Below, piece after piece: positions 17,708 to 44,981 of a stretch of DNA of 64,000 nt; within the stretch, counting starts at the first letter, position 1; every line of letters starts with the position of its first letter. The translations under genes were made by a program, and so were the position numbers. The notes below the pieces were generated by a model that saw nothing but the letters and a program-made list of their open reading frames with translations, did no database searches and was not told the DNA's origin. Source of the stretch: Sphaerisporangium krabiense (lineage in GTDB: Bacteria > Actinomycetota > Actinomycetes > Streptosporangiales > Streptosporangiaceae); NCBI RefSeq assembly GCF_014200435.1, contig NZ_JACHBR010000001.1:6328001-6392000 (forward strand), in the 5' to 3' direction.

Positions 17708-17726
17708 TAAGGTTAGCCTTACCTTG
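17708..17726. promoter_or_regulatory. Iron box 1 (DmdR/IdeR-type)
   Basis: TAAGGTTAGCCTTACCTTG matches the actinobacterial iron-box consensus TTAGGTTAGGCTAACCTAA at 14 of 19 positions. It lies 39 bp upstream of the ornithine monooxygenase start, suggesting iron-dependent repression of the leftward operon. Confidence 0.8.
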
Positions 17727-17732
17727 CAATCA

Positions 17733-17751
17733 TGAGGTTAGGCTAACCTTC
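17733..17751. promoter_or_regulatory. Iron box 2 (DmdR/IdeR-type)
   Basis: TGAGGTTAGGCTAACCTTC contains the complete 15-bp palindromic core AGGTTAGGCTAACCT (16 of 19 positions overall). It sits 34 bp upstream of the formyltransferase start and about 25 bp centre-to-centre from box 1, so the divergent pair probably shares tight iron control. Confidence 0.9.
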
Positions 17752-17784
17752 TTTGTCGCCGTGGTCTCGAGAGGGGAACCATTT

Positions 17785-19951: not shown

Positions 19952-20171
19952 GCCCGCTCCCCGAGTACGCCCACAGGCAGCCTACCGCCGCCACGCCTCC
20001 CGGCTCGGTGCGGCCGTCCGGCGGCCGGGAATGCCGATAACGACGGTTCCTGGTACCGTCGGTGTCGGAAGGTGCAGCGCTCGCTCGTTCGCGAGCACGT
20101 CGGGACATCCGGCTGGCACGGCAGCCTGAGCACAGGCTGTCTCGATCTCTCAGTGGAGAGTGTGTCCTGCC
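19952..20171. other. Divergent intergenic region between anmK and the reductase gene
   Basis: This 220-base gap holds the promoters of anmK and of the NmrA-like gene. One small hairpin, GCTCGC (20079-20084) with GCGAGC (20091-20096), is visible. No iron box or other recognisable operator was found. Confidence 0.4.
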
Positions 20172-21020: not shown

Positions 21021-21042
21021 CCGCGGACGCGGGACGTCCGGA

Positions 21043-21070
21043 CCGGGCACGTCCGCGCCGGCGTGCCCGG
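21043..21070. terminator. Hairpin between convergent genes
   Basis: CCGGGCACG (21043-21051) pairs perfectly with CGTGCCCGG (21062-21070) across a 10-base loop between the reductase stop and the stop of the ABC importer ATPase. Probably a bidirectional terminator. Confidence 0.6.
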
Positions 21071-21091
21071 GACCCGGCCGGGACCGAGGGC

Positions 21092-21886: not shown

Positions 21887-21889
21887 GGT

Positions 21890-22978: not shown

Positions 22979-22981
22979 GGC

Positions 22982-24007
22982 TCAGACCTCCGCGAGCTTG
23001 CGGCGGCGGACCATGGCGATGAAGAACGGCCCGCCGAGGAACGCGATGAGCACCCCGGCCTGGATCTCCACCGGGCGCGCGACCATGCGCCCGGTGATGT
23101 CCGCGGCCAGCAGCAGGCAGGGGGCGAGCATCGCCGACAGCGGGAGCAGCCAGCGGTGGTCCGGCCCTATCCCGGCACGTTCCGCGAGCGCGCGGGCGGC
23201 GTGCGGGATGACCAGGCCGAGGAAGACCACCGGGCCGATGACCGACACCGTGGCGCCGGTCAGCAGCGTGACCGCGGCCACGCCCTGGAGGCGGATCAGC
23301 CCGAGGCGGCGGCCCAGCGAGGCGGCCACGTCGTCCCCGAGCGCGAGGCTGTTCAGCGCGGGCGCGCACGCCATGGCCAGCAGCGCGCCCGCGGCCACGA
23401 ACGGCAGCACCCGCAGCACCGTCTCGCCTCCCTGGTCGGCGAGCGACCCCGCCGACCAGAAGCGGTAGCGGTTCAGCGCCTCGGGGGCGGTCAGGACGAT
23501 GGCGCTGGTCAGCGAGGTGAGCAGCGACGTCATCGCGATGCCCGCGAGCGCCAGCTTGACCGGCGTCAGCCCCGAGCGTCCCATCCTGCCGAGCAGGAAC
23601 ACCACGACGCCCGCGGCGAAGGCGCCGGCGAAGGCGAACCAGATGTACCCGAGCAGCGATCCGAGGCCGAGCACGGCGACCGAGAACACGATCGCGAACG
23701 CGGCGCCTGCGCTGACGCCGAGCACGCCGGGGTCGGCGAGCGGGTTGCGGGTGAGGGCCTGCATGAGCGCGCCCGCCAGGCCGAGTGCCGCGCCGGCGGT
23801 CACCCCGAGCGCCGTGCGCGGCACGCGGACCGTCCAGACGACGTTGTCGACGAGACGGCTGTCGGGGTGTCCGGCGAGGGCGCGCAGCACCTGGTCCAGG
23901 GGGATCCCCCGCGCGCCGAGCGCGATGGACAGCAGGCACAGGACGAGCAGGACGGCACCGAGCAGCACCAGGAGGAACGCGGGCCGTAGCCCTTGGGCGC
24001 GGGTCAC
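22982..24007 (-). CDS. FecCD-type iron-siderophore permease, subunit 1 (FepD-like)
   Basis: A 341-residue membrane permease of the FecCD family. Typical segments are GALMQALTRNPLADPGVLGVSAGAAF, SAGSLADQGGETVLRVLPF and LVIPHAARALAERAGIGPDHRWLLPLSA, including the conserved Arg/His-rich coupling loop. GTG start at 24007 with GGAGAC about 8 bases upstream. First gene of the importer operon; an iron box at 24088-24106 lies 81 bp upstream in the region shared with the divergent NRPS gene, so uptake and synthesis should be derepressed together. The matching substrate-binding lipoprotein is not adjacent but is encoded at 51.7-52.8 kb. Confidence 0.94.
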   Translation of the reverse strand: MTRAQGLRPAFLLVLLGAVLLVLCLLSIALGARGIPLDQVLRALAGHPDSRLVDNVVWTVRVPRTALGVTAGAALGLAGALMQALTRNPLADPGVLGVSAGAAFAIVFSVAVLGLGSLLGYIWFAFAGAFAAGVVVFLLGRMGRSGLTPVKLALAGIAMTSLLTSLTSAIVLTAPEALNRYRFWSAGSLADQGGETVLRVLPFVAAGALLAMACAPALNSLALGDDVAASLGRRLGLIRLQGVAAVTLLTGATVSVIGPVVFLGLVIPHAARALAERAGIGPDHRWLLPLSAMLAPCLLLAADITGRMVARPVEIQAGVLIAFLGGPFFIAMVRRRKLAEV

Positions 24008-24087
24008 CGCGATGTCTCCACTGTGACTTCCTTAAGCGGGGCATACCTGATCTCCGCTCGGAAAACCATGCGCCCCAGGGATGTGAC

Positions 24088-24106
24088 TTAGGTAAACCTT
24101 ACCTTA
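24088..24106. promoter_or_regulatory. Iron box 3 between importer and NRPS genes
   Basis: TTAGGTAAACCTTACCTTA matches the iron-box consensus at 14 of 19 positions and lies in the 162-bp divergent promoter region of the siderophore importer and the NRPS, 64 bp upstream of the likely NRPS start. It presumably represses both under iron sufficiency. Confidence 0.8.
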
Positions 24107-24169: not shown

Positions 24170-27100
24170 GTGTCCGGCATCGAAGAAGCAACGGAGTACT
24201 GGAACCGGCGTCTCTCCCCGCTTCCGCAGGAAGCCGCCCTCCCCGCCGACCTCCCGTACCCGCTGTCGCCCACCGGCCACTGGCAGACCCGCGTCCGCGC
24301 CCTCGCCGCCACCGCGCCCGAGCCGGTGCTGCTGGCCGCGTTCGTCGCGCTGCTCCACCGGTACGGAGGCGCGGAGGACATCACGGTCGGGTACGAGGGC
24401 CTGCCGCTGCGCGTCGCCTGCACAGGAGACACCACCTTCACCGACCTGACCCGCCGCGTCGAGACCGCCCGCACGGAGTCCCGCGCCCACCGCGTCCCTC
24501 TGTCGACCCTGGTCGACGCCCTGCGCCCGGCCCCGATGCGAGGCGGCGCCCTCCTCTTCAACACCGCCTTCACCACAACCCCCGCCTCCTCCTACAGCGC
24601 GCTTTACACGGATGAATCCGGCACAGCCGGACGGCTCATCGCGAACAGAAGCGCCGACCAGACCCCGCAGGGGACGGGTCCCGGCGGTGTGGTGGAGGCG
24701 GTTTCCCGTGTCGCGTGGGTGGGTTCCGGTGGCGTGGAGGAGACGGATCCCGGCGGCACGGGGGCGGCTTCCTGTGGTGCCGGTTCTGAAGGGGGCGTCG
24801 AGGGCGGTCGCGCTGATGGCGAGGGCGGTCCCGCCGAGGGTGGGGGGCTCGATCTGGTGCTTGGCGTTGCCGGGGAGGAAGTCTGGGTTGGATGTCGGGG
24901 GGACTTGTTCCTGGAGGAGACGGTTGAGCGGGTTCTCGGGCACTACGCGACGTTGCTCGCCGACGCGCTCGCGCGGCCGGAGGCTCCGGTCGGGGAGCTG
25001 GACGTGCTCGGCGCGGACGAACGGCGTCGCGTGCTGCGCGAGTGGAACGACACCGCGCACGACGTCCCGCTCCTGACCTGGCCCGAGATGTTCGCCGCGC
25101 AGGTGCGGCAGCGCCCGGACGCCGTCGCGCTGGTCTTCGAGGACACCCGCCTCACCTACGCCGAGCTGGACGAACGCGCCAACCGCCTCGCCCACGCCCT
25201 CATCGCGCGCGGCGCCGGTCCCGAGCGCGTGGTCGCGCTCGCCGTGCCCCGGTCGGCCGAGCTCATCGTCGCCGAGGTCGCCGTGCTGAAGTCCGGCGCC
25301 GCCTACCTGCCCGTGGACACCGACTACCCGGCCGACCGCGTCGCCTACATGCTCGCCGACGCCGCCCCCGCCTGCCTCGTCACCACGGCCGAGGTCGCCG
25401 GCGACCTGCCCGAGCCGCCCCCCGGCACGCGCACGCTCGTCCTCGACGCCGCCGGCACCGTCCGCGAACTGGCCACCGGCCCCGCCCACGACCCGGGCGA
25501 GGACGACCGGGGGCCGCTGTCGGTCCTCAACGCCGCCTACGTCATCTACACCTCCGGCTCGACCGGCCGCCCCAAGGGCGTGGTGCTGTCCCACGCGGGC
25601 GTGGCCAAGCTCGTCGCCACCCAGAGCGAGCGGTTCGGCGTCGGCCCCGACAGCCGCGTCCTGCAGTTCGCCTCGCCGAGCTTCGACGTCGCCTTCTGGG
25701 ACCTGTGCCTCGGCCTGCTTTCCGGCGGCCGTCTCGTCGTCGTCCCCGCCGAACTGCGCGTGCCCGGAGCCCCGCTCGCCGACTACGCGCACGCCAACGG
25801 CATCACGTTCATGATCCTGCCCCCGGCCCTGCTGGCCGCGATGCCCGGCGACGTCGAGCTGCCGCCCGCCACCCTGCTCGCCGGCACCGAACGCGTCTCA
25901 CCCGAGCTGGTCGGCCGCTACGCGCGCGGCCGCCGCATGTTCAACGCCTACGGCCCCACAGAGGCCACCACCAACTCCACCCTCGGCCTGTGCGACCCCG
26001 ACACCCCCGCCGGGTCCATCGTCCCCATCGGCGTCCCCGACCCCGGCACCCGCGCCTACGTCCTCGACGCCCGCCTGCGCCCGGTCCCCGCCGGGGTCAC
26101 CGGCGAGCTGTACCTCGGCGGCGCCGGGCTCGCGCGCGGCTACCTCGGACGGCCCGGCCTGACCGCCGAGCGGTTCGTCGCCGACCCCTTCGGCGCGCCC
26201 GGCGAGCGGCTGTACCGCACCGGTGACCTCGTCCGGTGGCGGGCCGACGGACGGCTGGACTTCCTCGGCCGCGCCGACTCCCAGGTGAAGATCCGCGGCT
26301 TCCGCGTCGAACCCGGCGAGATCGAGTCCGTGCTGCGCGCGCACCCCGCCGTCGACCAGGTCGCGGTGGTCGTCCGCGAGGACCGCCCCGGCGACCGCCG
26401 GCTGGCCGCGTACGTCGTCCCGGCCCTGGTGCCGGAGACCGGCTCGGACGGCCCCGGCCGGGTCGAGGAATGGAAGGACCTGCACGACCTGCTCTACGCG
26501 GCCGCGGGATCCGACGACGCCCACGAGAGCGCCGGGGGCGCGAACGGCGCCCATGAGAGTGCGCGCGCGAACGGTGTTCACGAGAGCGCCGGGGTCGCGG
26601 GCGGCGTCCGGGAGGGCTCGGGCGCGGACGTCTCCCCGAGTGATCTCGCGGGCGGGATCTGCGAGAACTTCGCGGGCTGGAACAGCATGTACGACGGGCT
26701 GCCGATCCCGGTCGAGGAGATGCGCGAGTGGCGGGAGGCCACCGTCGCCGCCATCCGTGGACTGCGGCCCCGCCGGGTGCTGGAGATCGGCGTCGGCAGC
26801 GGGCTCATCCTGTCCCGCGTCGCGCCCGGCTGCGAGGCGTACTGGGGCACCGACCTGTCGCACCAGGCCGTGGACGCCCTGCGCGCCCAGGTAGCCGCCG
26901 TGCCCGAGCTGGCCGGGCGTGTCGAGCTGCTCACCCGGCCCGCGCACGACCTCGCCGGGCTCCCCGAGGGCTTCTTCGACACCGTCGTCATCAACTCCGT
27001 CGCCCAGTACTTCCCCGACGCCGAGTACCTGACCGGCGTCCTGCGCCAGGCGAGCGGGCTGCTCGTGCCGGGCGGGCGCGTCTTCGTCGGCGACGTGCGC

Positions 27101-30100
27101 AACCTGCGCCTCCTGCGCTGCCTGCGCGCTGCCGTCGAGACCCGCCGCCAGGCGACCACCGTCGGCCGTGCCGGGGACGGACGCGACGGGCAGGACAAGG
27201 ACGCGCTGCGCACGGCCGTCGAGCGGTCCGTCGCCTGGGAAGGCGAACTGCTCCTCGACCCGGACTACTTCGCCACGCTGCCCGGGTTCGACGCCGACAT
27301 CCGCGTCAAGCGCGGCGCCTCCCACAACGAGCTGACCCGCTACCGCTACGACGTCGTCCTCCATCCCACCGCCGCCCGCACCCCCGAGAACGCCACCGTG
27401 GGGACGGGCGGCGCGGAGACGGGCGGGGCGTCCCGAGTCACCACCGGTGGGTCCCAGGCCGGCGGACGGCCGCAGGCCGCGCTCCACCTGCCGGTGGCGC
27501 CGCAGCCGGCCGACCAGGCCGCCGAAGAGGTCCGATGGGCTGATCTCGTCGGCCCGGATGCGCCGGACGGGCTGGAAGCGCTGGACGCCCTGGACACGCG
27601 CCTCGCCGAGCGTGCCGGTCCACTGCGCGTCGTCGGCGTGCCCAACGCCCGGCTCGCCGACGACCTGGCCGCCCTGTACGCGGTCGAAGAGGAGGGCGGC
27701 CCGGCCCTGCCGCTCACAGGCGCCGACCCCGAGGCGCTGCACGCACTCGCCGCCCGCCACGACCGCCAGGTGGCGGTCACCTGGAACGGCCACGCCGCCG
27801 ACGGCGCCCTCGACGCCCTCTTCACCCCCGCCCACCACCCAGAGGCCATCGAGAAGCTCCCCACCCACCCGCACGACGCCCCCGCCAACTCCAACGACGC
27901 CTCCGCCGACTCGCCCGACGCGCTCGCCAACTCCCACGACAGCACCGTCCCTCCGCACGTCGCGCCCGGCAGGGCCCCCTACCCGCACGACGCGCCCGGC
28001 CGGACCTACGACGGGCCCGGTCACCCGTACGACGCGTCCGGTCGCGCGGAGGAGGCGGTCGGCGGTGGCGTGCTCCAGGGCGCCTACCGGAGTGCGGGGT
28101 TGTTCGCGCAGGCCAATCGTCCGGTGCCGTTCAGGGATGTCGCGGTGCTCATGAAGACGCTGCGCGCGCATGCCGCCGAGTGGCTGCCCGAGTACATGGT
28201 GCCGTCCGCGTTCGTGCCGCTGCACCGTCTGCCGGTCACTCCGAGCGGCAAGCTGGATGGCGCCGCGCTGCCCGTGCCGGACCCGGCCGCGCTCAGCTCC
28301 GGCCGCGCGCCCCGCGACCCGCGCGAGAAACTGCTCTGCGCGCTGTACGCCGAGGTGCTGGGCGTGGAGTCGGTCACCGTCGACGACGACTTCTTCGCCT
28401 TCGGTGGCGACAGCATCGTGGCGATCCGGCTGCTCGTCCGCGCCCGCGAGTCCGGCCTGCGCCTGACCTCCCGCGACGTCTTCCGCCACCGCACGGTCGC
28501 CGCGCTCGCCCAGGTGGTCGAACGCGCCGAAGGCGCCGGCATCCCGCAGCCGGGCGAGGAGGCCGGCGGCCCGCTGCTGACCCTCGCCCCGGACGAGATC
28601 GCGGAACTGCGGGGCGAGGTCCCGATCCCCTTCGAGGAGGCCCTGCCGCTCGGCCCGCTGCAGCAGGGGTTCTTCTTCCATTCCCTGCTCGACGGCCCCG
28701 CGGGGGACGTGTACGTCGTCCAGCAGGCGCTCGACCTGCGCGGACCCGTCGACGGCACGGCCCTGCGCCGCGCCGCGCAGCGGCTCCTGGACCGGCACGC
28801 CCCCCTGCGCGCCTTCTTCCGCAGGCGCGCCGACGGCGGCCCCGTGCAGCTCATCGCCGAGCACCTCGACCTGCCCTGGCGCGAGGTGGACCTGCGGGCG
28901 GAGGGCCCGGCGGCGGAGGAGCGGGCGCGGACGGTGGCGGGGGAGGAGCGCGCCCGGCGCTTCGACCTGGCCCGTCCGCCGCTGGTGCGCTGCGCGCTCG
29001 TCAGGCTCACCGATGACCGCAGCCGCCTGCTCCTCACCTTCCACCACATCGTCGCGGACGGCTGGTCCCTCCCGATCCTGCACCGCGAACTGATGGCCCT
29101 GTACGCCCATCCCTCGGAATCGCCGGACGGCCCGCGACACGACGTGGCCGAGGTGCGCGAGATGGGCGGCGCGGAGACCGGCCTGTGGGACCGTCGCGAG
29201 GACGCTGTGCCGCTTCCTGCGGTCGATGTGGCCGAGGTACGTGAGATCGGCGGCGCGGGGACCGGGACGCGGGACCGTCGCCAGGGTGCTGTATCTCTCC
29301 CCGTGCCCACTCCGTACCGTGAGCACCTGCGGCGTCTCGCGGGGGCCGACCGGGAGGCCGCGCGGGGCGCGTGGCGGGAGGCTCTTTCGGGTGTCGAGGA
29401 GCCCGCACGGCTGACCGGTGTGCCGGCGGGCGGTGCGCCGCTCCGGCCCGCGCAGGTGCGGGTCGAGGTGTCTGAGCGGGTCACCGCCGGGCTGGCCGTC
29501 GTGGCGCGGGAGCGTGGCGTCACCCTGGGGACGATCGTGCAGGTCGCCTGGGGACTGGTGCTCGGACGGCTGACCGGGCGTCAGGACGTCGTCTTCGGCA
29601 CCACCGTCTCCGGCCGCGACGCCGAGGTGGACGGGATCGAGTCCATGGTCGGCCTGTTCATCAACACCCTGCCGACCCGCCTGCGCTGGAACCCCGCCGA
29701 CACCCTCGCCGGTCTGCTGGAGCGGTTCCAGGACGAGCAGGCCCGCCTGCTGGACCACCAGCACCTCGGACTCGCCGAGATCCAGCGCGTCGCCGGGTTC
29801 GCCGGCGGGGGCGAGCTGTTCGACACGCTGGTCGTCGTCGAGAACTACCCCTCCGCCACCGGCCTCACCGACCCCACCGGCACGGTCGCCGTCACCGGCC
29901 ACGAGTTCCACGACGCCGTCCACTACCCCCTCGCCCTGATCGTGAAGCCCGGCCGGCGGCTGGACCTGCGTCTCAAGCACCACGCCGAGCGGCTCGACGG
30001 GGACGCCGTCCGCGCCCTCGCCGACCGTCTGACCCGCGTCCTGCGGGCCGTCGCCGAGAGCCCCCGGGACCTGGTGGCCCGCGTCGACCCGGCCGCCCCC

Positions 30101-33100
30101 GAGGACCTCGCCGCCGCCACCCCCGAGGGGGAGGTGGTGGAGGTCCCCGCGACCACGCTGGCCGCCGCCTTCGCGGCGCAGGTCGCCAGGACCCCGGACG
30201 CCACGGCGGTCGTGTACGAGGACGAGACCCTCACCTACCGCGAGCTGGACGCGCGCGCCGCCGCCCTGGCGGGCCGCCTGCGCGGGCTCGGCGCGGGACC
30301 GGGGCGGGTGGTCGCCGTCGCCGTGCCCCGCTCGGCCGGGCTGATGGTCGCCCTGGTCGGCGTGCTGAAGTCGGGCGCGGCCTACCTCCCCGTGGACCTG
30401 GACTACCCGGCCGACCGCATCGCCTACATGCTCGCCGACTCGGGCGCGGACACGGTGGTCACGACGGCCGCCGCCGCGCCGCGCCTGCCCGCCCTCGCCA
30501 CCCTCACCCCGCTGCTCCTCGACGCCCCCGAGGCCGGGAGCGGAGCCCTCGCCGACGCGCCGGAGCACGCGCTGACCGCGGACGCGGGCGAGGCGGACGC
30601 GCCGGGGAATGCCGCGGAAGCGGACGTGCCGGGGAACGCGGTGGACGCGGACCCGGACGACGCCGCCTATCTCATCTACACCTCGGGATCCACCGGACGT
30701 CCCAAGGGCGTCGTGGTCACGCACCGCGCGATCGTCAACCGGCTGGCGTGGATGCAGGGCGAGTACGGGCTGCGCGCCGACGACCGGGTGCTGCAGAAGA
30801 CGCCGTCCAGCTTCGACGTCAGCGTCTGGGAGTTCTTCTGGGCGCTGTGCGAGGGCGCCGCGGTCGTGCTCGCCCGGCCCGACGGGCACCGCGACCCCGC
30901 CTACCTGGCCGGCCTGATCCGCGCGCGGCGGATCACCACGATGCACTTCGTGCCGTCGATGCTGGAGGCGTTCCTCGCGGCGGGCGAGATCACCGCCGAC
31001 CCGTCCTGGGCGGTGTCGCTGCGCAGGGTGTTCAGCAGTGGCGAGGCGCTGCCAGGCCCGGCCGCCGCGCGCTGGCGGGACCTCACCGGCGTCCCCCTGC
31101 ACAACCTGTACGGCCCCACGGAGGCGGCCGTGGACGTGACCTACCACCCCTGTGACGGCCGGTCCGGCGAGGCCGCCGTCCCGATCGGGCGCCCGGTCTG
31201 GAACACCGGGCTCCGCGTGCTGGACGCCGCGCTGCGGCCGGTGCCGCGCGGTGTGCCCGGCGAGCTGTACCTGACCGGCGTCCAGCTCGCCCGCGGCTAC
31301 TACGCCCGCCCCGGCCTGACCGCCGAGCGCTTCGTGGCCGACCCCTACGGCCCGCCCGGCACCCGCATGTACCGCACCGGCGACCTCGTGCGCGTCGGCG
31401 GCGACGGCGGGGTGGAGTACCTGGGCCGCACCGACCGGCAGGTCAAGCTGCGCGGCAACCGCATCGAGCCGGGAGAGGTGGAGGCGGCGCTGACCGCCCG
31501 CCCGTCGGTGGCCCAGGCGGCGGTGGCCGTCCGCGGCACCACGCTCGTGGCCTACGTCGTCCCCGCCTCCCCACGCCCGCCGGCGACCGTTACCGGGACA
31601 GAGGACGGGATCGCCGCCCTGAGCGGGGATGGGACCAACGCCCGGACCGGGGACGGAACCGGTGAAGGCCAGGGCGGCGGGATCGATGTGCGGGCTCTCG
31701 CGGCCGAGGTGGCCGGGGTGCTGCCCGCGGCCATGGTGCCCGGTGCGTACGTGGTGCTGGACGCGCTGCCGCTGACCCCGAGCGGGAAGCTGGACCGGGA
31801 CGCGCTGCCCGCCCCCGAGGCCGTGCGCGCCGAGAGCCGCGCGCCGCGCGATGAGCGTGAGCGCGTCCTCACCGAGATCTTCGCCGCCGTGCTGCGCCTG
31901 GACGAGGCCGGGCCCGACGACGACTTCTTCATGCTCGGCGGCGACAGCATCTCCTCCATCGGCGTCGCCGGCCGCGCCCGCCGGGCCGGTATGGAGCTGG
32001 ACCCGCGCGACGTCTTCGAGCACCGCACCCCGGCCGCCCTCGCGGTCGCCGCGGCGGAGAAGGCCCGGGCGACCGGCCCGCGGCCACGAGCGGGGACGGG
32101 GATCGTCCGCGACGAGGAGGCCAGGACCGGATTCGGGCTCGGCGAGGAGAGCGGTACGGGGTTCGGGCTCGACGAGGAGGAGGTCGCCCGGGTGCGGCGG
32201 ATGGCGGGGGACGTCGAGGACGTCTGGCCGCTGGCGCCGCTGCAGGAGGGCCTGTTCTTCCACTCCACCTACGACCAGGGCGTCCTTGACGTCTACACCG
32301 TCCACGAGACGTTCGACTTCGCCGCGCCGCTGGACGCCGACCGGCTGCGCGCCGCCGCCCGGGCGCTGCTGGCCAGAACCCCCGGCCTGCGCGCCGGGTT
32401 CACGGCCGACGGCCTGCGCAGCCCGCTGCAGTTCATCGTCCGCGACCTCGAGATCCCGCTGGAGGAGGTGGACCTGTCCCGCCTGCCCGAGGCCGAGCGG
32501 GACGCGAGGATGCGCGCGCTCGTGGACGAGGAGCGGACCCGCGGGTTCGACCTGGCCGCTCCGCCGCTGTTCCGCATGCTGCTGGTCCACCGCGGCGCGG
32601 GGCTGGGCGACCGCCTGGTCGTCGGCCGCCACCTGCTGCTGTGGGACGGCTGGTCGGCCTGGGTGTTCCTGGAGGAGCTGTTCGCCCTGTACGAGTCCGG
32701 GGGCGACCCGGCCGGTCTTCCCCGCCCCGGCTCCTACCGCGACTACCTCACCTGGCTGGAGTCCCAGGACGCCGGCGAGGCCGCGCGCGCCTGGCGCGGC
32801 GCGCTGGCCGGGCTGGAGGAGCCGACGTTGATCGGCGGCGCCGCCGGCCAGGACCTGGACCCGGTCATCCCCGAGAGCCTGGACGCCGACCTGCCCGCCG
32901 CCCTCGGCGAGCGGCTGCGCGAGGTCACCCGGGGCAACGGCCTCACGCTCAACACCGTCCTGACCGCCGCCTGGGGCCTCACGCTGGCCGCCGTCACCGG
33001 GCGCGGCGACGTGGTCTTCGGCACGACCGTCGCCGGGCGGCCGAGCGAGGTGCCGGACGTCGAGAACATGATCGGCATGTTCCTCAACACCGTCCCCGCC

Positions 33101-36100
33101 AGGGTGGCCTTCGCCCCCGAGGAGCCGGTGCTGGACCTGCTGCGCCGCGTCCAGCGCGAGCGCCTGGCCCTGATGCCGTACGAGTACTTCAGCCTGGGCG
33201 TGCTGCAGGCCGAGACCGGGCACCGGCGGCTGTTCGACACCCTGTTCGTGCTGCGCAACGCCGACACCGAGGACCGGCTGGCCGAGCTGGCGGCCCGGCA
33301 CGGCGCGACCGCCGTCGCCAACGTGGACGCCACCCACTACCCGGTGACCGTCATCGTCACCCCGGGCCGCCGCGTCCGCGTCACCCTGGCCCACCGCCCG
33401 GACGTCGTCGGCGCGGGCCGGGCGCGCGCCCTGCTGGACCGCTTCACCGCGACCCTCGCCCGGCTGGTCCGCGACGTCGGCGCGCCCACCGGCCGTGTCG
33501 ACCCGCTGCTGCCCGGCGAGCGCGCCGCCTTGGAAGGCGAGGACGCCGCCAGCCGTGTCCCCGTCCCCGAGCAGACCATCGCCGACCTGCTCGCCGCCCA
33601 GGCCGCCCGCACTCCTGAGGCCACCGCCCTGGTGTTCGGCGACCTGTCGGTCACCTACGCCGAGCTGGACGCCCGGGTGAACCGCCTGGCCCGCCTGCTG
33701 CTCGCGCGCGGCGCCGCACCGGAGAAGGTCGTCGCGCTCGGCCTGCCCCGCTCGATCGACATGGTGGCCGCGCTGTTCGCCGTCCTGCGCACCGGCGCCG
33801 CCTACCTCCCCCTGGAACTGGACCACCCGGCCGACCGGCTCGTCGCCACGCTCGACGACGCCGGCCCCGCGCTCCTGCTGTGCGCCTCGGCCGTCTCGGC
33901 CCGCCTGACGGGCGGCGTCCCTGACGGACGGCGGATCGTGCTCGACGACCCGGCCGTCGCCGAAGCGCTCGAAGGGCTGGACGCCGGTCCGGTCACCGAG
34001 GCCGACCGTCCCGCCTTCAGCCTGGACCACCCGGCCTACGTCATCTACACCTCCGGGTCCACCGGCCGCCCCAAGGGCGTCGTCACGCCGTACCGCGGGC
34101 TGACGAACATGCAGCTCAACCACCAGAAGGAGATCTTCGCCCCGGCGGTCGCCTCCGCCGGAGGACGCGGGCTGCGCGTCGCGCACACGGTGTCGTTCGC
34201 GTTCGACATGTCCTGGGAGGAGCTGCTCTGGCTCGTCGAGGGCCACGAGGTGCACGTCTGCGACGAGGAGCTGCGGCGCGACGCGCGGGCCCTGGTCGCC
34301 TACTGCCAGGCGCACCGGATCGACGTCGTCAACGTCACCCCGACCTACGCCCACCTGCTGATCGAGGAGGGCCTGCTGGAGGGGCACCGGCCGCCGCTGG
34401 TGCTGCTCGGCGGCGAGGCCGTGTCCGAGACGGTGTGGAATCGGCTGCGCGACACCGACGGCACCTACGGCTACAACCTGTACGGCCCGACCGAGTACAC
34501 CATCAACACCCTCGGCGGCGGCACCGGCGACAGCGCCACGCCCACCGTCGGCCGTCCCATCCGCGCCACCCGCGCCCGGATCCTGGACGCCTGGCTGCGG
34601 CCCGTCCCCGCCGGCGTCCCCGGCGAGCTGTACATCGCGGGCGTCGGCCTGGCCCGCGGCTACCTGGACCGGCCCGGCCTGACCGCCGAGCGGTTCGTCG
34701 CCGACCCCTTCGGGGAGCCGGGCGAGCGCATGTACCGCACCGGTGACCTGGTGCGGCGCCGCGCGGACGGCAACCTGGACTTCCTCGGCCGCACCGACGA
34801 CCAGGTGAAGATCCGGGGGCACCGCGTCGAGCCCGGCGAGGTCGAGACCGCGCTGGCCCGCCACCCCGAGGTCGCGCACGCGGCCGTCGTCGCCCGCGAC
34901 GACCCGGCCGCCCCCGGCACCCGCCGCCTGGTCGGCTACCTCGTCCCCGCCGAGCAGGAGGGAGAGGAGCGCGAGTCCGCCGAGCGCGAGCAGATCGGCG
35001 AGTGGCGCGACATCTACTCCGACGAGTACGAGCGCATCGGCACCGCGCTGTTCGCCGAGGACTTCGCCGGGTGGGACAGCAGCTACGACGGGCGGCCGAT
35101 CCCGCTGGAGCACATGCGCGAGTGGCGCGAGCGCACGGTCGAGCGGATCCGCGAGCTGCGCCCGCGCCGGATCCTGGAGATCGGCGTCGGCTCGGGCCTG
35201 CTGCTGTCGCGCCTGGCCCCGGACGCCGAGGCGTACTGGGCCACCGACTTCGCCGCCCCCGTCATCCGCAAGCTCGGCGCGGAGCTGCGGGGCGACCCCG
35301 CGCTGGCCGCCAAGGTGGAGCTGCGCTGCCAGGCCGCCCACGACACCGACGGCCTGCCGCGCGGCTTCTTCGACACCGTCGTGATCAACTCGGTGGTCCA
35401 GTACTTCCCGAGCGCGGGCCACCTGGCCGAGGTGATCCACGGCGCGATGGGCCTGCTCGCCCCGGGCGGCGCCCTGTTCGTCGGCGACGTGCGCGACCTG
35501 CGCACCGCCCGCGCCTTCCACACCGCCATCCAGCTCACCCGCGCCGGCGACGGGGCCGATCCGGAGGCGCTGCGCCGCGCCGTGGACCGGAGCCTCGCGC
35601 TGGAGAAGGAACTGCTGGTCCACCCCGACTTCTTCACCACGCTCGGCTACGGCGCCGACCTGCGCACCAAGCGCGGCCACCACCACGACGAGCTCACCCG
35701 CCACCGCTACGACGTCGTCCTGTACGAAGGGACCCCGGACGCCGCGCTCGGCGCGGGGCAGGAGATCGCCTGGCCCGCCGCAGGCGTGGACGCGTCCGGC
35801 GCCGAGCCCGGAAGCGGTCGGCCCGGCGCGCTCGGCCGCCTCCTGCGCGACCACGGCGCAGGCCCGCTGCGGGTCACCGGCGTCCCCGACGCCCGCGCCG
35901 CCTCAGAACCCGGCTCGGCGATCGCCGGGGGAGTGGAGCCCGAGGCCCTGCACGCGCTGGCCGCCGAGCACGGCCACCGGCTGCTCACCACCCCGTCCGC
36001 GGAACCCGGCCACTACGACGCGGTCTTCGTGCGCGACGCGGCCCGCCTGACCGGCGGCCTGTACCGCCCCGGCGGCGGCACGCCCCCGTACGCCAACGCC

Positions 36101-39100
36101 CCGGCGGTGGCACGCGGCGCGAGCGGGCTGGTGCGGCGCGTGCGCGAGGACCTGCGCGCCTCGCTGCCCGACTACATGGTGCCCACCGCGCTGGTCGTCG
36201 TGGACGCGCTGCCGATGAACGACAACGGCAAGCTCGACGTGCGCGCGCTGCCCGACCCCGAGCCGGTCGCCGCCACGGGCGGGCGCGAGCCGAGCACCCG
36301 CGAAGAACAGGTGCTCTGCCGCCTGTACGCCGAGCTGCTCGGCCTGCCCAAGGTGAGCGCCGAGGACGACTTCTTCGACCTCGGCGGCCACTCGCTGCTC
36401 GCCACCCGCCTGGTCAGCCGCGCCCGCACCGAGCTCGGCGCCGAGCTGGCCATCCGCGACCTGTTCGAGGCCCCGACCCCCGAGGCGCTCGCCGCCCGCG
36501 CGGAGACCGGGCGGCCCGCCCGCCCGGCCGTCGAGCGCGCCGCCGAACGGCCCGAGCGCGTCCCCGCGTCCCCGGCGCAGCGCCGCCTGTGGCTGGCCGA
36601 ACGCCTCAGCGGCGGCGACGCCTACCACTTCCCGCTGGTCTTCCGGCTGCGCGGCGCCCTCGACACGGCCGCGCTGCGGGAGGCGCTCGGCGACGTCGTC
36701 GCCCGGCACGAGGCGCTGCGCACCCGGTTCCCCGAGCACGAGGGCGAGCCGTACCAGCACGTCGTGCCCGCCGCCGAGGCGTGGCCCGGGTTCGCCGTCG
36801 CCGACTGCGCCCCTGAGGACGTCGAGGCCCGGGTCGCCGCCGCCGTGGCGCGCCCGTTCGACCTCGCCGCCGGGCTGCCCGTGCGCGCCGAGGCGCTGCG
36901 GCTCGCGCCGGACGACCACGTGGTGGCCGTCGTCCTGCACCACATCACCACCGACGAATGGTCCGACCGGCCGTTCCTCGCCGACCTCGCCACCGCCTAC
37001 CGGGCGCGCCGCGACGGCCGGGCCCCGGACTGGGCGCCGCTGCCCGTCCAGTACGCCGACTACACCCTGTGGCAGCGCCGCCTGCTCGGCGACCCCGCCG
37101 ACCCCGGCAGCGAGGCCGCGCGGCAGCTCGCCCACTGGACGGCCGCGCTGGCCGGCCTGCCCGAGGAGACGCCGCTGCCCCTCGACCGGCCCCGCCCCGC
37201 CGAGCCCACCGGGCTCGGCGGCACCGTGCGCGCCGAACTGCCCGCCGAGACCGTCCGGGCACTGCGCGCCCTGTCGGCCGAGACCGGCACCAGCATGTTC
37301 ATGCTGTTCCACGCCGCGCTCGCCGTCCTGCTGCACCGCATGGGCGCGGGCACCGACATCGTGGTCGGCTCGCCCATCGCGGGGCGCACCGACAGCGCGC
37401 TGGACGACATGGTCGGCTTCTTCGTCAACACCCTGGTCCTGCGCGCCGACCTGTCCGGCGACCCGCCCTTCACCGAGCTGCTCGCCCGGGTGCGCGAGGC
37501 GGACCTGGCGGCCTTCGAGCACCAGGACCTGCCGTTCGAGCGGCTCGTCGAGGCGCTCAACCCGCCGCGCGTGCCCGGCCGCAACCCGCTCTTCCAGGTG
37601 ATGATGGGCTACCACCACCGTCCCGGCGGCGACCCCGACGTGCTCGGCATGCCCACCGAGTGGCTGCCCGCCCGCATCGGCACCGCCAAGTTCGACCTGG
37701 ACTTCACCTTCGCCGACCACACCGGCGAGGACCGCGTCGTCGTCCTGCTGGAGTACGCCGCCGACCTCGCCGACGAGGAGACCGCCGAGGCCCTGATCGC
37801 GCGCACCGTCGCGCTGCTCGGCCACCTCGCGGCCCACCCCGGGCGGCCGATCGGGCAGGCGCCCGTCCTCACCGCAGAGGAGCGCGCGGCGAGCCTCGGC
37901 GCGTGGCACGGCGCCGAAAGGCCCGTCGAGCGGCGCACCGTGCCCGAGATCTTCGCCGCGGCCGCCCGCGCCCACGGCGACCGGGTCGCGCTGGTCGCGG
38001 GCGGGCGCAGGCTGACGTTCGCCGAACTGGCGGCCGAGGTGAACGGCATCGCCGGCCTGCTGCGCCGGCGTGGCGTCGGCCGGGGCGACCTGGTCGGGCT
38101 CGCCCTTCCCCGTTCCGAGATGGTGCCCGCGATCCTCGGCGTCCTGACGGCCGGAGCCGCCTACCTGCCCCTCGACGCGGGCCTCCCGGCCGAGCGGCTG
38201 GCGTACGTGCTTTCCGACGCCGCCCCCGCGCTGGTCCTGACCACCGACCCCGCTCCGCCGCTCCCCGGTGGTGTGCCGTCACTGGTCCTCGGCGCCCCGG
38301 ACGCTTCCTCGGACCGGACCGTCCCTGCTCACGCCGGGACGCCGCCGCAGGCCGCCGCGTACGTCATCTACACCTCCGGATCCACCGGCACGCCGAAGGG
38401 CGTCGTCGGGACGCACGGCGGGCTGGGCAACCTGTTCGGCGGCCAGTACGAGGACGTCATCGAACCCGCGCGCCGGGCCGCGGGACGCGAGACCCTGCGC
38501 GCCATGCACGCCGCCTCGTTCGGCTTCGACGGCTCCTGGGAGCCGATGCTGTGGCTGCTGGCCGGGCACGAGCTGCACGTCCTGGACGAGGCCACGATGA
38601 CCGACCCCGCCGCGCTGCTCGCCTACCTGGAGGCCGAGCGCCCCGACTACGTCGACCTCACCCCCACCTACGTCGAGGAACTGCTGCACCACGGGTTCCT
38701 CGCGCCCGGAGCGCACCGGCCGGGCGTCATCACCGTCGGCGGCGAGGCGACCTCCGCCGAGCTGTGGGGACGGCTGACCGCGCTGCCCGGCACGGCGGTC
38801 CACGACATGTACGGGCCGACCGAGTGCGCCGTGGACGCCTACGGCTGGCACGCGGACGGCCGGGGCGCGTGGGCGGCGCCGGTGGCCGGCATCCGCGCCC
38901 ACGTGCTCGACGCCGCGCTGCGGCCCGTGCCCCCCGGCGTGCCCGGCGAGCTGTACCTGGCCGGACGCGGACTCGCCCAGGGGTACCTGAACCGTCCGGG
39001 GCTCACCGCGGAGCGGTTCGTCGCCGACCCCTACGGCCCGCCCGGCACCCGCATGTACCGCACCGGCGACCTGGCCCGCCGCCGCGCCGACGGCACCCTC

Positions 39101-42100
39101 GTCTTCCTCGGCCGCGCCGACGACCAGGTCAAGCTGCGCGGCTTCCGCGTCGAGCTCGGCGAGATCGAGGCCGCCCTGCGCGCCCACCCGTCCGTGGCCC
39201 AGGCCGCGGTCACCGTCCGCGAGGACACCCCCGGGGCCCACCGCCTCGTCGCCTACCTGGTCCCCGCCACGACCCCGGCACCGGATAAGGAAGGGGCGCC
39301 GCACGCGACCTCCGAGGCGGCCGCCGGCAGGGCGCTGGACGCGGCGCCGGGAACCGCGTCCGAGGCGGCCCCGGCCGGGGAGCTCGCGCCGGACTCCGCC
39401 GGGCTGCGGGCGCACCTCGCGCGTACGCTGCCCGAGCACATGGTGCCGGCGCTCTACGTGACGGTGGCGGCGCTGCCGAGGTCGGCCGGGGGCAAGCTGG
39501 ACCGGCGTGCCCTGCCCGCCCCGCCGGACTCGGCCGGCGAGGCGCCCGGGCGGCGGCCGAGGGACGCTCGTGAGGAGATCCTCGCCGAGCTGTTCGCGGC
39601 CGTCCTCGGGACCGGGCGCGTCGGCGTCCACGACGACTTCTTCGCGCTCGGCGGCCACTCGCTGCTGGCGATGCGGCTGGTCAGCCGGATCCGCGCCGCC
39701 CTCGGCGCCGAGGTCACCCTGCGCGAGGTGTTCGAGGCGCCCACCGTCGCCCGCCTGGCCCGCAGGCTGGAGCAGGCGCGGGACGGCGGCGGCACGGCGC
39801 TGGCCGCCGTGGCACGGCCCGAGCCGATGCCGCTGTCGTTCGCCCAGCGGCGGCTTTGGGTGCTGTACCGGCTGGAGGGCCCGACCGACACCTACAACAT
39901 CCCCATGGCCTGGCGCCTGACCGGCCCGCTCGACCCGTCCGCGCTGGAGGCCGCGCTGCGCGACCTGGCCGCCCGGCACGAGAGCCTGCGCACGGTCTTC
40001 CCCGAACGCGACGGCCACCCCTACCAGCTCGTCCTTCCCCTCGACCGGCTCGCGGGCGCGCTGGACGTCCGGGAGCCGGAACAGGTCACCGAGGAGGAGC
40101 TGCCCGCCAGGCTGGCCGAGGCCGCCGGTCACCGCTTCGAGCTGGACCACGAGCCGCCGCTGCGCGCCCGGGTGTTCCAGGTCGGGCCGCGGGAGCACGT
40201 GCTGGCGCTCGTCGTCCACCACATCGCCGGCGACGAATGGTCCGACGCGCCGCTGTGGCGCGACCTCGCCACCGCCTACCGGGCCCGGCTGTCGGGGCGG
40301 GCCCCGGACTGGGCGCCGCTGCCCCTGCAGTACGCCGACTACACCCTCTGGCAGCGCGAACGGCTCGGCGACCCCGCCGACCCCGAAAGCCGGCACTCCC
40401 GCGAGATCGCGTACTGGACACGGGCGCTCGCGGGCTTGCCCGAGGAACTGCCGCTGCCGGCGGACCGCCCCCGGCCGTCCGAGAGCGGCCACCGCGGCGG
40501 CGCGGCCGGGTTCACGCTGCCGTCCGGGCTGGAGCCGGACCTGCGCCGCCTGGCCCGCGAGCACGGCGTCAGCATGTTCATGGTCGTCCAGGCCGCCGTG
40601 GCCACGCTGCTGCACCGGCTCGGCGCGGGCGACGACATCCCGATCGGCGCGCCCATCTCCGGCCGCGCCGACGAGCGCCTGGAGGACCTGGTCGGGTTCT
40701 TCATCAACACCCTCGTGCTGCGCACGGACGTGTCCGGCGACCCGACCTTCGCCGAACTGCTCGCCCGGGTCCGCGCGGCCGACCTCGCCGCCTACGAGCA
40801 CCAGGAGGTGCCGTTCGAGCGGCTGGTCGAGGCGCTCAACCCCGCCCGTTCGCTGGCCAGGCACCCGCTGTTCCAGGTGGTGGTCGCCTACCTGACCGGC
40901 GGCGGCGCCACCCCCGCGCTGGCCGGGCTCACCGCACGCCCCGAGCCGCTCGGCCAGGAGTCGGCCAAGTTCGACCTGAGCTTCGACTTCGTCGACCACG
41001 GCGAGGGCCGGGGCATCTCGGGCTGGATCGAGTACAGCGCCGACCTGTTCGACCCCGCCACCGCCGACCTCCTCGCCACCCGCCTGGTCCACGTCCTCAC
41101 CCAGCTCGCCGGCGACCCCGAACGGCCGGTCGGCCGGATCGACCTCCTGGGCGACGAGGAACGCCACACCATCCTCACCACCTGGAGCACCACCCCCCTC
41201 CCCGCGCCCGTGTCCGCCCCCACCCCGGCCACGGGGGGCGTCGCCGTGGCCGAGAACGAGGCCGAGAACGAGGCCGAGAATGAGGCCGTCACGGTCGCGG
41301 GTGGTCCGGCCACGGTTCCCGCGCTGTTCGAGGCGCGGGTCGCGGCCACGCCGGACGCCGTCGCCGTCGTCTGCGGCGCGGTCCGGTGGACGTTCGCCGA
41401 GCTGAACGAACGGGCCAACCGGCTCGCCCGCCTGCTCGCCGCGCACGGCGCGGGCCCCGAGCGCGTCGTCGCCCTGGCGCTGCCACGCTCGGCGGACTTC
41501 ATCACGGCGATCCTGGCCGTGATGAAGTCCGGCGCCGCCTACCTGCCCGTCGATCCCGAGCTCCCTGCCGACCGAGTGCTGGGCATGCTCGGCGACGCCC
41601 GCCCCGTACTCGTCCTGACCACGGGCGACGACGCCGGACCGTCACCGGAGGCCGGATCATCGGGGGAGGCCACGGCCTCGCTGGCACGGCCGGAGGTCTC
41701 CGGGCGTGGTGTGCCGTCGCTGACGGACGCGGGCGTGCCCGTTCTGCGGCTGGACGACCCCGAGACGGCCGCGGCGCTGGCCGCGCTGCCCGGCACCGAT
41801 CCGGACACCGGGCCGCACCCGCTCAACCCCGCCTACGTCATTTACACCTCCGGCTCCACCGGCCGCCCCAAGGGCGTCGTGGTGTGCCATCGCGGGGTCG
41901 TCAACCTGTTCCACAGCCACCGCGCGACGCTGTACGACCCGGCCAAGCGCGCCACCGGCAGGACCGCCCTGCGCGTCGGCCACGCCTGGTCGTTCTCCTT
42001 CGACGCGTCCTGGCAGCCGCAACTGTGGCTGCTCGACGGGCACGCCCTGCACGTCCTGAACGACGAGGAGCGCCGGGACGCCGAGCTGGCCGCCGCGTTC

Positions 42101-44713
42101 GCCCGGCGGGAGGGGCTGGACTTCATCGAGGTCACGCCGTCCTTCTTCGCGCAGATGGCCGAGGCGGGGCTGATCGAGGACGGCGTCTGCCCGCTGGCCG
42201 TGGTGGGCGTCGGCGGCGAGGCGGTGCCCGACTCGCTGTGGCGGCGGCTGGCCGCGCTGCCGGCCACCGAGGCGTTCAACCTGTACGGCCCCACCGAGGC
42301 CACCGTGGACGCCCTGGCCGCCCGGGTCCGCGACAGCGAGCGGCCCCTGGTCGGCCGCCCGGTCTCCGGGGCCCGCGCCTACGTGCTCGACGACCGGCTG
42401 CGTCCGGTGCCGCCCGGCGTGACCGGCGAGCTGTACCTGGCGGGCGAGGGCCTGGCCCGCGGCTACCTCGGCCGTCCCGGCCAGTCGGCGGAACGCTTCG
42501 TCGCCGACCCGTACGGCGCGCCCGGCACGCGCATGTACCGCACGGGCGACCTGGCCCGCTGGACCCGTGACGGGCGCCTGGAGTACGGCGGCCGCGCCGA
42601 CGACCAGGTCAAGATCCGCGGGTTCCGCGTCGAGCCCGCCGAGATCGAGTCCGTCCTCGACCGCCACCCCTCCGTGGCCCAGGCCGTCGTCACCCCCCGC
42701 ACGGACACCCCCGGCCTCACCCGCCTGGTCGCCTACGTCGTCCTCACGAACGACCACTCTCCGGACGACTCCTCACCGGACAATCCGTCTACGGACGGTC
42801 TCTCCCGGGACACTCCCTCGCAGGACACTCCGTCTGGGGACGGTCCTTCGACGGACGGTCCTTCTCCGGACGGCTTCTCTTCCGCGAGTGGACCGGACCC
42901 GGCGGAGCTGCGGGCTTTCATGGCGGCGGCGCTGCCGGACTACATGGTGCCCGCGGCCGTGGTCGTCCTCGACGCGCTGCCGTTGCTGCCCAACGGCAAG
43001 CTCGACCGCAAGGCGCTCCCCGCGCCGGACTTCACGCTCGCCGCGAGCGGCAGGGAACCGTCCGGCGAGGTGGAGCGGGCTCTGGCCGCCGTGTTCACCG
43101 AGGTGCTGGGGCTGCCGCGCATCGGCGCCGACGACGACTTCTTCGCCTGCGGCGGCGACAGCATCGTCGCGATACGCCTGGCCGCGCGGGCCCGGGAGGC
43201 GGGGGTGCGCTTCAGCCCCCGCCAGCTCTTCCTGCACCGCACGGTCGCGGCCCTGGCCGCCGTCGCCGTCGTGACCGGCCCGGGCGGGGCGCCCGCGACC
43301 CACGACGACGGCGCCGGGACCGTCCCCCTGACGCCGATCATGCACGCCGTGCGCGAGCTGGGCGGCCCGATCGGGGGCTTCCACCAGGCGGCGCTCCTGC
43401 GCGCCCCGCGCGACCTGGACGAGGACCGGCTGCGCCGCGTCCTTCAGGCCCTTCTCGACCACCACGACATGCTCCGCGCCCGCCTGGACCGAACCGCCGA
43501 GCGGTGGGTGCTGCGGGTGCCCGCTCGGGGGGCCGTGGACGCGGCGGGCCTGGTGACCAGGGTCGATGTTCGCGATGCCGACGAAGAGGGCCTCCGGGCG
43601 GTCATCGCCGAGCGCGCGCTCGCCACGCGGGCCCGTCTCGACCCGGACGCGGGCGTCATGGTGCGGGCCGTGTGGTTCGACGCGGGGACGGAGCGGCAGG
43701 GACGTCTGCTGCTCACGATCCACCACCTCGCGGTCGACGGCGTCTCGTGGCGCGTCCTGCTGCCCGACCTCGTCTCGGCCTGGCGGGACGTCACCGAGGG
43801 CAGATCTCCGGATCTGCCGCCGGTGGAGACGTCGTTCCGCCGCTGGGCGGAACTGCTCGGCGAGCGCGCCGCCGACCCGGCCCTGCGCGGGGAGCTGCCG
43901 CTGTGGCGGCGGATGCTGGAGGGCGGTTCCCCGCTCCCGGCGCCCCGCCCGCTGGACCCGTCCCGCGACGTGGTCGGGACCGCCCGCTACCTGTCCCGCA
44001 CGCTGCCCGAGGACGTCACGGAGCCGCTGCTCGGCCGCGTCCCGGCCGCGTACGGCGCGACCGTCAACGACGTGCTGCTCACCGCGCTCGCCGTCGCCGT
44101 CGCCGCGTGGCGGCGCCGGCACGCGGACGACGCCGGGCAGGGCGTCCTCGTGGACCTGGAGGGCCACGGCCGCGAGGAGGCGCTGGCGGGCGAGGCGGAC
44201 CTGTCCCGGACGGTCGGCTGGTTCACGAGCGTCGTCCCCGTCCTGCTGGACCCGGGCCCCGGCGTGGACGACGCGCTCGCGGGCGGTCCCGCGCTGGACG
44301 AGGCGCTGGCCCGGGTCAGGGAGCGGCTGGCCTCGCTGCCCACGGCGGGCGTCGGCTACGGCCTGCTGCGCCACCTGGACCCGCAGGCCGGTCCCGAGCT
44401 GGCCCGGCTCGGCGCGCCGGGGATCGAGTTCAACTACCTCGGACGCTTCGGCGGCCTCGACGAGGACGACTGGGCGTACGCGCCGGAGGGCGACGTCGCC
44501 GACCTGGACGCCGACCCGGGCATGCCGCTGTCGCACCCGCTGACGGTCAACGCCCTCACCGAGGACCGCCCCGGCGGCCCGGTGCTCGTCGCCCAGTGGT
44601 CCTTCGCCGGGGAACTGCTGACCGAGGCCGGGATCGAGGACCTGGCGGCCACCTGGTTCCAGGTTCTGCGGGCCCTGGTCACCCGCGCCGCCACCATCGC
44701 CGACGGGCGCTAG
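24170..44713 (+). CDS. Five-module siderophore NRPS with two embedded N-methyltransferases
   Basis: A 6847-residue megasynthase. Order: vestigial C (1-290); A1 with inserted N-methyltransferase (A 300-750, MT 833-1066, A tail to 1370); T1 (GGDSI, ~1412); C2 (HHIVADG ~1625)-A2-T2; C3 (altered RHLLLWDG, ~2820)-A3 with second MT (3631-3854)-T3; C4 (HHITTDEWS, 4257)-A4-T4; C5 (HHIAGDEWS, 5350)-A5-T5; terminal epimerization domain (6384-6847, HHLAVDG at 6518). A2 pocket reads DVWHFSLVDK, the serine code; A3 reads DMENLGLINK, the N5-hydroxyornithine code. A1 (DVWILAATNK), A4 (DGEDTGMVDK) and A5 (DAQEGGLVDK) are unassigned. No thioesterase. GTG at 24170 has GGAGG 11 bases upstream; TTGs at 24152 and 24161 are alternatives. 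Confidence 0.95.
26516..26612 (+). repeat. Imperfect HESAG/ANG repeats in NRPS linker
   Basis: The A1-to-methyltransferase linker encodes three imperfect copies of (A/V)HESAG..(A)NG. Positions correspond to residues about 783-815. Low-complexity, Ala/Gly-rich, probably an expansion by slippage. Confidence 0.6.
27976..28047 (+). repeat. Imperfect PYxHDAPGR repeats in NRPS linker
   Basis: The segment after the first methyltransferase encodes variants of (P/T)Y(P)xD(A/G)(P/S)GR at least three times ([23 protein letters not shown]), preceded by Asn/Asp/Ser-rich sequence. It separates the methyltransferase from the A1 C-terminal subdomain. Confidence 0.6.
29141..29308 (+). repeat. 84-bp tandem duplication inside condensation domain C2
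   Basis: Two adjacent copies (29141-29224 and 29225-29308) each encode a 28-residue unit starting DVAEVRE(M/I)GGA and continuing to DRR..AV.LP. They lie between the HHIVADG active site and the [10 protein letters not shown] segment of C2, a surface loop in condensation domains. The second copy has diverged, so the event is not recent. Confidence 0.85.
41252..41287 (+). repeat. 12-bp triplicate (ENEA) in C5-A5 linker
   Basis: Three near-identical 12-bp units encode [12 protein letters not shown] in the linker before adenylation domain A5. Acidic, flexible spacer. Confidence 0.9.
42755..42888 (+). repeat. Short Ser/Pro/Asp repeats in A5 linker
   Basis: Repeats of the form (S/T)(P/T)DxxS, with units such as [12 protein letters not shown], occupy about 45 residues just before the C-terminal subdomain of A5. 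A slippage-type expansion in a place tolerant of length change. Confidence 0.75.
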
Positions 44714-44771: not shown

Positions 44772-44981
44772 GTGACCAACCCCTTCGAGAACGCCGACGG
44801 CGTCTACTCCGTGCTCGTCAACGACGAGGGGCAGTACAGCCTGTGGCCGGAGTTCGCGGAGGTCCCCGCGGGCTGGACGGTCGCCCACGGCCCGGGCACC
44901 CGCCAGGAGTGCCTGGACCACATCGAGTCGGTCTGGACCGACATGCGCCCGAACAGCCTCATCGACCACATGACGACCTGA
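44772..44981 (+). CDS. MbtH-family NRPS activator
   Basis: A 69-residue MbtH-like protein, the usual family length. Conserved features are NPFEN near the start, [24 protein letters not shown] with the family tryptophans, and a C-terminal [17 protein letters not shown]. These proteins bind adenylation domains and are often needed for their folding or activity. The GTG at 44772 has GAGGAG 7 bases upstream. It lies 58 bp after the NRPS stop, almost certainly in the same transcript, and probably serves some or all of the five A domains. Confidence 0.97.

Follow-up and report, generated by a model that had tools for sequence, protein, structure and literature searches.

A scabichelin-type siderophore cluster in Sphaerisporangium krabiense and a family of condensation domains lacking the aligned second histidine of HHxxxDG

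Results

The third condensation domain (C3) of a nonribosomal peptide synthetase (NRPS) from Sphaerisporangium krabiense carries leucine where the canonical HHxxxDG motif has its second histidine, and the same position is without histidine in every domain of equivalent placement that we counted among the best 80 of 85 related loci. The synthetase belongs to a gene cluster within a stretch of 64,000 nucleotides (the window), taken from a genome of 8.53 Mb in 4 contigs. Judged from its sequence, this cluster is an ordinary, well-preserved scabichelin type, of the same kind as that of Streptomyces scabiei but not a near-copy of it.

The synthetase and its predicted residues

The NRPS gene (24152-44713, forward strand) starts at a TTG, the start in the earlier note, 24170, being an in-frame GTG, and its frame is free of internal stops over 6853 codons. 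Domains were called by Pfam together with profiles built for the purpose, which gave the order C*(remnant)-A-MT-T / C-A-T / C-A-MT-T / C-A-T / C-A-T-E. The first domain is a weak N-terminal C remnant, and the A, T, MT (N-methyltransferase) and E (epimerisation) domains are all recognised. Pockets were taken from an alignment, except that position 239 of A1 and A2, where the alignment slips one residue, was assigned by eye from the neighbouring sequence. Module 1, comprising A1 and N-methyltransferase 1 (25022-27376), has the pocket DVW-IL[A/G]ATN-K, a code shared with S. scabiei, and is predicted to supply N-Me-fhOrn. Module 2 (C2-A2-T2, 28628-32041) has the Ser pocket DVWHFSLVDK. C3 (32210-33535), with its motif of 10 protein letters, is predicted to form a Ser-CO-N(OH) hydroxamate bond, and is followed by A3, N-methyltransferase 3 and T3 of module 3 (33521-36490), whose pocket DMENLGLINK predicts N-Me-hOrn. 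Module 4 (C4-A4-T4, 36554-39757) reads DGEDTGMVDK (DGEDAGLVDK in S. scabiei) and is predicted to load Orn, and module 5 (C5-A5-T5, 39821-43255) reads DAQEGGLVDK, predicted to load a cyclising hydroxyornithine (hOrn) (PMC7692728). All of these lie on the forward strand. The accessible text of the same source prints DAWEGGLVDK as the fifth-module hOrn code, which is the window's pocket 5 counted one residue differently (FDASWQ in the window). The domain calls thus confirm the five modules in one protein, an N-methyltransferase in each of modules 1 and 3, the Ser and hydroxyornithine pockets and the accompanying formyltransferase, all of which the earlier note had already read.

The synthetase ends in an epimerisation domain (43307-44683, forward strand) with intact E2 and E4-E7 motifs and 9 residues after it, and its assignment as E rests on sequence matches to tyrocidine, gramicidin S and PvdL chains. 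No thioesterase was found after this domain or in the genes scanned around the NRPS. A divergent open reading frame (19914-24044, reverse strand) was considered as a thioesterase or second NRPS and rejected, as its translation is not protein-like; the real genes, in another frame of the same strand, encode FecCD permeases and an ATPase.

Neighbouring genes and iron-box-like sites

As expected for the scabichelin type, the cluster contains an N5-hydroxylase, a formyltransferase and an MbtH protein. The formyltransferase (17761-18732, forward strand) shares 79% identity with a formyltransferase of S. scabiei and probably N5-formylates hOrn. The hydroxylase is a Lys/Orn N-monooxygenase (PF13434; 16335-17669, reverse strand) whose substrate, from its cluster context, would be ornithine; among PDB chains it is nearest to MbtG, a lysine N6-monooxygenase, and then to KtzI and L-ornithine 5-monooxygenases. 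The MbtH-like protein, of 69 amino acids, is encoded at 44772-44981 on the forward strand. Beside the hydroxylase, a gene on the reverse strand (14736-16304) encodes a methyltransferase fused to a siderophore-interacting (ferric reductase) protein, which would have a role in the pathway. This fusion is 522 amino acids long with a class I methyltransferase domain, is 94% alike in a second species (G008) and 62% in another genome (G010), and has no second full copy in its own genome. Candidate uptake genes, all on the reverse strand, comprise an iron-siderophore ABC ATPase (21092-21886), two FecCD permeases (21890-22978 and 22982-24007), a periplasmic-binding-protein-type receptor (PF01497; 51704-52774) and two ABC transporters that each combine membrane and ATPase parts (52793-54598 and 54595-56328).

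Iron-box-like sites occur between hydroxylase and formyltransferase (17708-17751, two sites starting at 17708 and 17733, with 2 mismatches each), between permease and NRPS (24088-24106, 3 mismatches) and ahead of the genes for the ABC pair and the binding protein (56360-56378, 3 mismatches). Scored against an iron-box consensus, such sites appeared 0 times in 100 dinucleotide shuffles. The hydroxylase, MbtH, permeases with ATPase, binding protein with ABC pair, terminal E domain and iron-box-like sites are additions to the earlier note.

Other genes nearby are less usual. A gene for anhydro-N-acetylmuramic acid kinase (AnmK; 18716-19951, reverse strand) is inserted in the siderophore cluster, with its 3' end overlapping the end of the formyltransferase gene; G008 has this insert too, and it is missing from the regions retrieved for 15 further clusters. 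The product of 46804-48279 (reverse strand) strongly matches the hopanoid C-3 methylase HpnR (823 bits, cut-off 650), an odd neighbour for a siderophore cluster, and an Nramp-type metal transporter (61773-63536, reverse strand) lies near the window end. Elsewhere in the genome, two IucA/IucC-type siderophore synthetase matches (G000:C1:3763514-3765747) suggest a second, NRPS-independent siderophore.

Comparison with the scabichelin cluster of S. scabiei

An alignment of the module-3 MT was scanned against 84,980 species genomes and the best 80 of 85 loci were kept, S. scabiei 87.22 included. The scabichelin NRPS of S. scabiei 87.22 (6358 amino acids) has the same domain order as the window NRPS, which is about 500 amino acids longer. 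The single five-module plan, with MTs in modules 1 and 3 and a terminal E, was compared with S. scabiei, Streptomyces sp. B93, G008 and G010 and agrees with the scabichelin type. Short tandem repeats in the window gene (26522-28043, 30593-32180 and 41248-42873), with units of 12-57 bp, mostly inter-domain and with a period divisible by three in 12 of 13 repeat rows, may account for part of the extra length. Pockets 1, 3 and 5 are identical in the two proteins, pocket 2 differs at 299 (F/L) and pocket 4 at 299 (T/A) and 322 (M/L), and all five predicted residues are those of S. scabiei scabichelin. The two proteins share 69% identity across 6288 aligned positions; by domain it falls from 86% (A1) through 63% (A4) to 57% (terminal E), with 47% in the C remnant. 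Ten genes are collinear and in the same orientation, homologues of window genes being the ones sought, and two blocks are inserted in the window: AnmK with an NmrA-like gene, and MFS, HpnR, TauE and rhodanese genes. Two iron-box-like sites are present in the fetched part of the S. scabiei cluster. The accessible text of PMC8914351 places the scabichelin cluster of S. scabiei at SCAB_85431-85521 with core gene SCAB_85471, which fits the NRPS being the fifth of the ten collinear genes in the S. scabiei record, if tags are matched to genes by their numbering. The domain order of the scabichelin NRPS is also described for Phytohabitans clusters in the accessible text of PMC7692728.

Six of ten other Sphaerisporangium genomes have matches of 74-94% identity to the module-3 MT, the other four having none or one weak match, which argues that the cluster's features are not due to chance. 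The synthetase of G008 is 93% identical to that of the window, and its cluster shares the AnmK, MFS, HpnR and TauE inserts; the NmrA-like gene was not found in the G008 cluster.

By arithmetic, N-Me-fhOrn, Ser, N-Me-hOrn, Orn and cyclised hOrn sum to 647.3602 Da, and the exact mass printed for scabichelin is 647.36 (PMC7692728). With Ser in place of residue 4 the same arithmetic gives C24H44N8O11 and 620.313, the neutral formula behind an ion putatively annotated as turgichelin in the accessible text of PMC10458595. The composition fits both the scabichelin mass and the turgichelin formula, and neither match proves it unique; we derived the residue order from the mass, the order of the modules and secondary texts.

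Domain order, pockets and gene order together support the earlier proposal of an N-methylated Orn/Ser pentapeptide hydroxamate of scabichelin logic. The part of that proposal that called the siderophore new, or allowed for a different product, finds no support, given the equal domain order, identical or near-identical pockets and collinear genes. Near-identity to a characterised cluster, which the earlier note had named as telling against novelty, was not found at the level of sequence, but architecture and pockets still predict the same compound.

C3 lacks the aligned second histidine

The second His of HHxxxDG is the textbook catalytic residue of condensation domains. C3 belongs to this family by Pfam (PF00668) and by sequence similarity to C domains in the PDB; however, a gapless alignment places Leu at its second His, in the motif RHLLLWDG (R2826-G2833; 32627-32650, forward strand). 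The C domain before the N-Me-hOrn module reads either one 10-letter motif or RHLILWDGWS in 15 of 15 synthetases (13 C3 domains and two C4 domains of Amycolatopsis), and in the same alignment most other C domains read HHxxxDG or HHxxxDE, with QHxLLDG in the last C of six-module forms.

We then counted C domains of more than 330 amino acids directly before a DMEN[L/M]GLIN A domain, by gapless alignment in the best 80 of 85 loci. The aligned second His was absent from all 73 (HL in 59, QV in 12, HV in 2) and was kept in 309 of the 318 other C domains of these loci. Seven of the nine exceptions are HP pieces in Amycolatopsis, probably degenerate E domains; of the other two, that of L113 itself stands before a fragmented DMEN A domain, and that of L097 (YY) is found at its locus end. 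C domains that precede the cyclising hOrn pocket kept the second His in 52 of 52; this residue is probably joined through its alpha nitrogen, its N5 being part of the ring. Those that precede the fhOrn pocket DIEYWGGIG kept it in 3 of 3, and we take that residue to be joined through the alpha nitrogen as well. Among Streptomyces (150 genomes, 56 with a match, 30 loci examined) it was absent from 29 of 30 loci, the exception (L216) reading QHHILTDGWS, and the His-less loci include seven (L217-L223) of coelichelin-like type, with a 10-letter motif of their own. In the window's order (150 genomes, 60 with a match, 30 loci examined) it was absent from 30 of 30, four of which read SELILLDGWS with no His at all. 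The three sets have genomes in common (among them those of the window, S. scabiei and Sphaerisporangium album), and their counts are not additive.

Several other C3-type domains have HH followed by four residues and DG, such as HHLILWDG (6 of 30 in Streptomyces and 11 of 30 in the order set), and the motif could accordingly be read as HH with a one-residue insertion, such that a shift of one would keep an active-site His. This reading is disfavoured. An HMM of 222 canonical C domains aligned 102 of 102 C3-type domains (73 and 29) without a gap in the motif, the C domain of PvdL aligns with them in the same gapless way, and no His stands at either position in 12 of 73 domains (QV type, 80-locus set) and in 4 of 30 (SELILLDG, order set). 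The aligned loss is accompanied by strong conservation: WDGWS is invariant in 18 diverse HL, QV and HV members (LDGWS in the EL type), and the C3 domains of the window and G008 are 97% identical, among the highest values for large domains, which argues that C3-type domains are not decaying. On one tree the His-less domains form two groups, but a single origin is compatible with the AU test (p 0.63); two separate losses of His are therefore not established.

Relatives with five and six modules

Sorted by the A domains after the DMEN pocket, the best 80 of 85 loci comprise 12 five-module loci with an Orn-type module 4, 13 five-module loci with another module 4, 27 six-module loci and 28 that are incomplete or other. 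A1-MT is present in 10 of the 12 five-module Orn-type loci, S. scabiei among them. Streptomyces sp. B93 shares with the window five modules, two MTs and pockets 1, 2, 3 and 5; synthetases of its type differ in a module 4 pocket of Ser type and are turgichelin-like by the arithmetic above (620.313). A4 of B93 (L147-L148) is closer to A5 (Ser) of six-module relatives (75-76%) than to their A4 (48-50%), so that its A domain appears to have been exchanged in nature; such an exchange would convert scabichelin into turgichelin. C4 and T4 of B93 stay C4- and T4-like.

The six-module relatives (Herbidospora, Planotetraspora, Acrocarpospora, Streptosporangium and S. melleum), those of Herbidospora being called albachelin-like in the accessible text of PMC4599437, share modules 1-4 and the last module with the window and have one extra Ser module. 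Window C5 resembles six-module C5 (68-73%) and window A5 resembles six-module A6 (72-78%), so the unit absent from the window is A5-T5-C6, with a breakpoint in the C-A linker or at the start of A. Five-module forms are scattered over the trees built from modules 2-3, with 6 changes on 52 rows and 3 on 40 rows (12 dropped). A single clade of all five-module rows was rejected (p 0.019, a modest value from quick trees) and a single clade within Sphaerisporangium was not (p 0.317).

More distant synthetases share parts of this plan. The albachelin-like synthetases of Amycolatopsis (A. coloradensis and A. orientalis; albachelin residue order from the accessible text of PMC4599437) have, like the window, an hOrn pocket with MT, the last pocket DAQEGGLVD and a terminal E-like domain. 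They differ in a full N-terminal C, the lack of a module-1 MT, an extra E-like piece after module 2 and Ser pockets 4 and 5. Streptomyces synthetases in frames of about 3.6-3.8 kaa have, as in the window, a DMENLGLIN module behind a C domain in which the aligned second His is missing, and no MT was found in that module. We presume these to be coelichelin-like from their size and pocket.

Discussion

In the proposed pathway, Orn would be N5-hydroxylated by the product of 16335-17669 and part of it then N5-formylated by the product of 17761-18732. The NRPS would link N-Me-fhOrn, Ser, N-Me-hOrn, Orn and hOrn in that order, C3 putting the Ser carbonyl on what is probably the N5-hydroxyl nitrogen of residue 3 to give the second hydroxamate. 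The last hOrn would cyclise on release and so form the third hydroxamate, which would make a thioesterase unnecessary and, as this release occurs without water, would be consistent with the mass. The ferric complex would be imported via the FecCD/ATPase and binding-protein/ABC systems, and the iron boxes would turn the genes on under iron starvation.

It is highly likely from these comparisons that the window cluster is a Sphaerisporangium member of the scabichelin family with scabichelin or a residue-4 analogue as predicted product, and that product is very probably either scabichelin or a compound almost the same. Against this stand the lysine enzyme that is closest to the hydroxylase in the PDB and the divergence from S. 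scabiei, overall and in A4, where two of the nine positions of pocket 4 are changed and residue 4 could differ. A4 is indeed the least conserved A domain, with both 299 and 322 changed, and residue 4 has a Ser-type pocket in other family members such as B93. We nevertheless consider it unlikely that module 4 loads a non-Orn residue to give a pentapeptide not yet described, because A4 keeps the acidic pocket positions D235, E239, D278 and D331 and Orn-type relatives themselves vary at 299 (T, V, A, S) and 322 (L, M). One S. scabiei cluster is reported to give both turgichelin and scabichelin in the accessible text of PMC8914351, which means that a single pocket can give rise to two products. 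The cluster might also be silent or degraded, as the two gene blocks that interrupt it have no counterpart in S. scabiei, but this is most improbable: the long frame is uninterrupted, the A, T, MT and E domains are all recognisable, iron-box-like sites are present, and the species G008, with its closely similar synthetase, has the AnmK, MFS, HpnR and TauE inserts too.

The C3 observation weighs more than this scabichelin-type assignment. If an N-Me-hOrn in a tris-hydroxamate is not formylated, its N5-OH nitrogen has to be acylated by Ser, and from the composition and the title of the 2013 scabichelin paper we infer this for the middle residue of scabichelin. The nucleophile for C3 would then be a hydroxylamine and not an alpha-amine. 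At neutral pH a hydroxylamine is for the most part not protonated and is a strong nucleophile; a His whose task is to deprotonate or position an alpha-ammonium group may therefore be dispensable. The corresponding residue of albachelin is named likewise in the accessible text of PMC6151521, and the role of the second His of HHxxxDG is described as debated or unsettled in the accessible text of PMC11546977 and PMC8097023. As far as sequence comparison can indicate, C3 may well be an undescribed C subtype that forms hydroxamate bonds with the N5-hydroxylamine as acceptor, the second His having been given up as the nucleophile is already neutral and reactive. Alternatively, C3 may have a structural role, with the hydroxamate arising in some other way, or another residue may have taken over its catalysis. 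Our literature search, largely of papers outside subscription, found no mention of His-less C domains before hydroxyornithine modules, nor do the accessible parts of PMC1894796, PMC8949500, PMC10587159, PMC11546977, PMC8097023 and PMC12971057 mention such domains; if an earlier mention exists, PMC10212144 is where it would most likely be.

The cluster would extend the scabichelin pathway to Sphaerisporangium with a checkable predicted mass, its novelty in the genus not being firm. If the proposed subtype is real, a C domain without the His ahead of a DMENxGLIN A domain would flag side-chain (N5) linkage at the sequence level, and the subtype would serve as a natural test of what the second His, whose role is disputed, does. 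A conserved His-less C family, with at least one assembly line of known product, would offer a direct test of that role and a possible marker of hOrn linkage.
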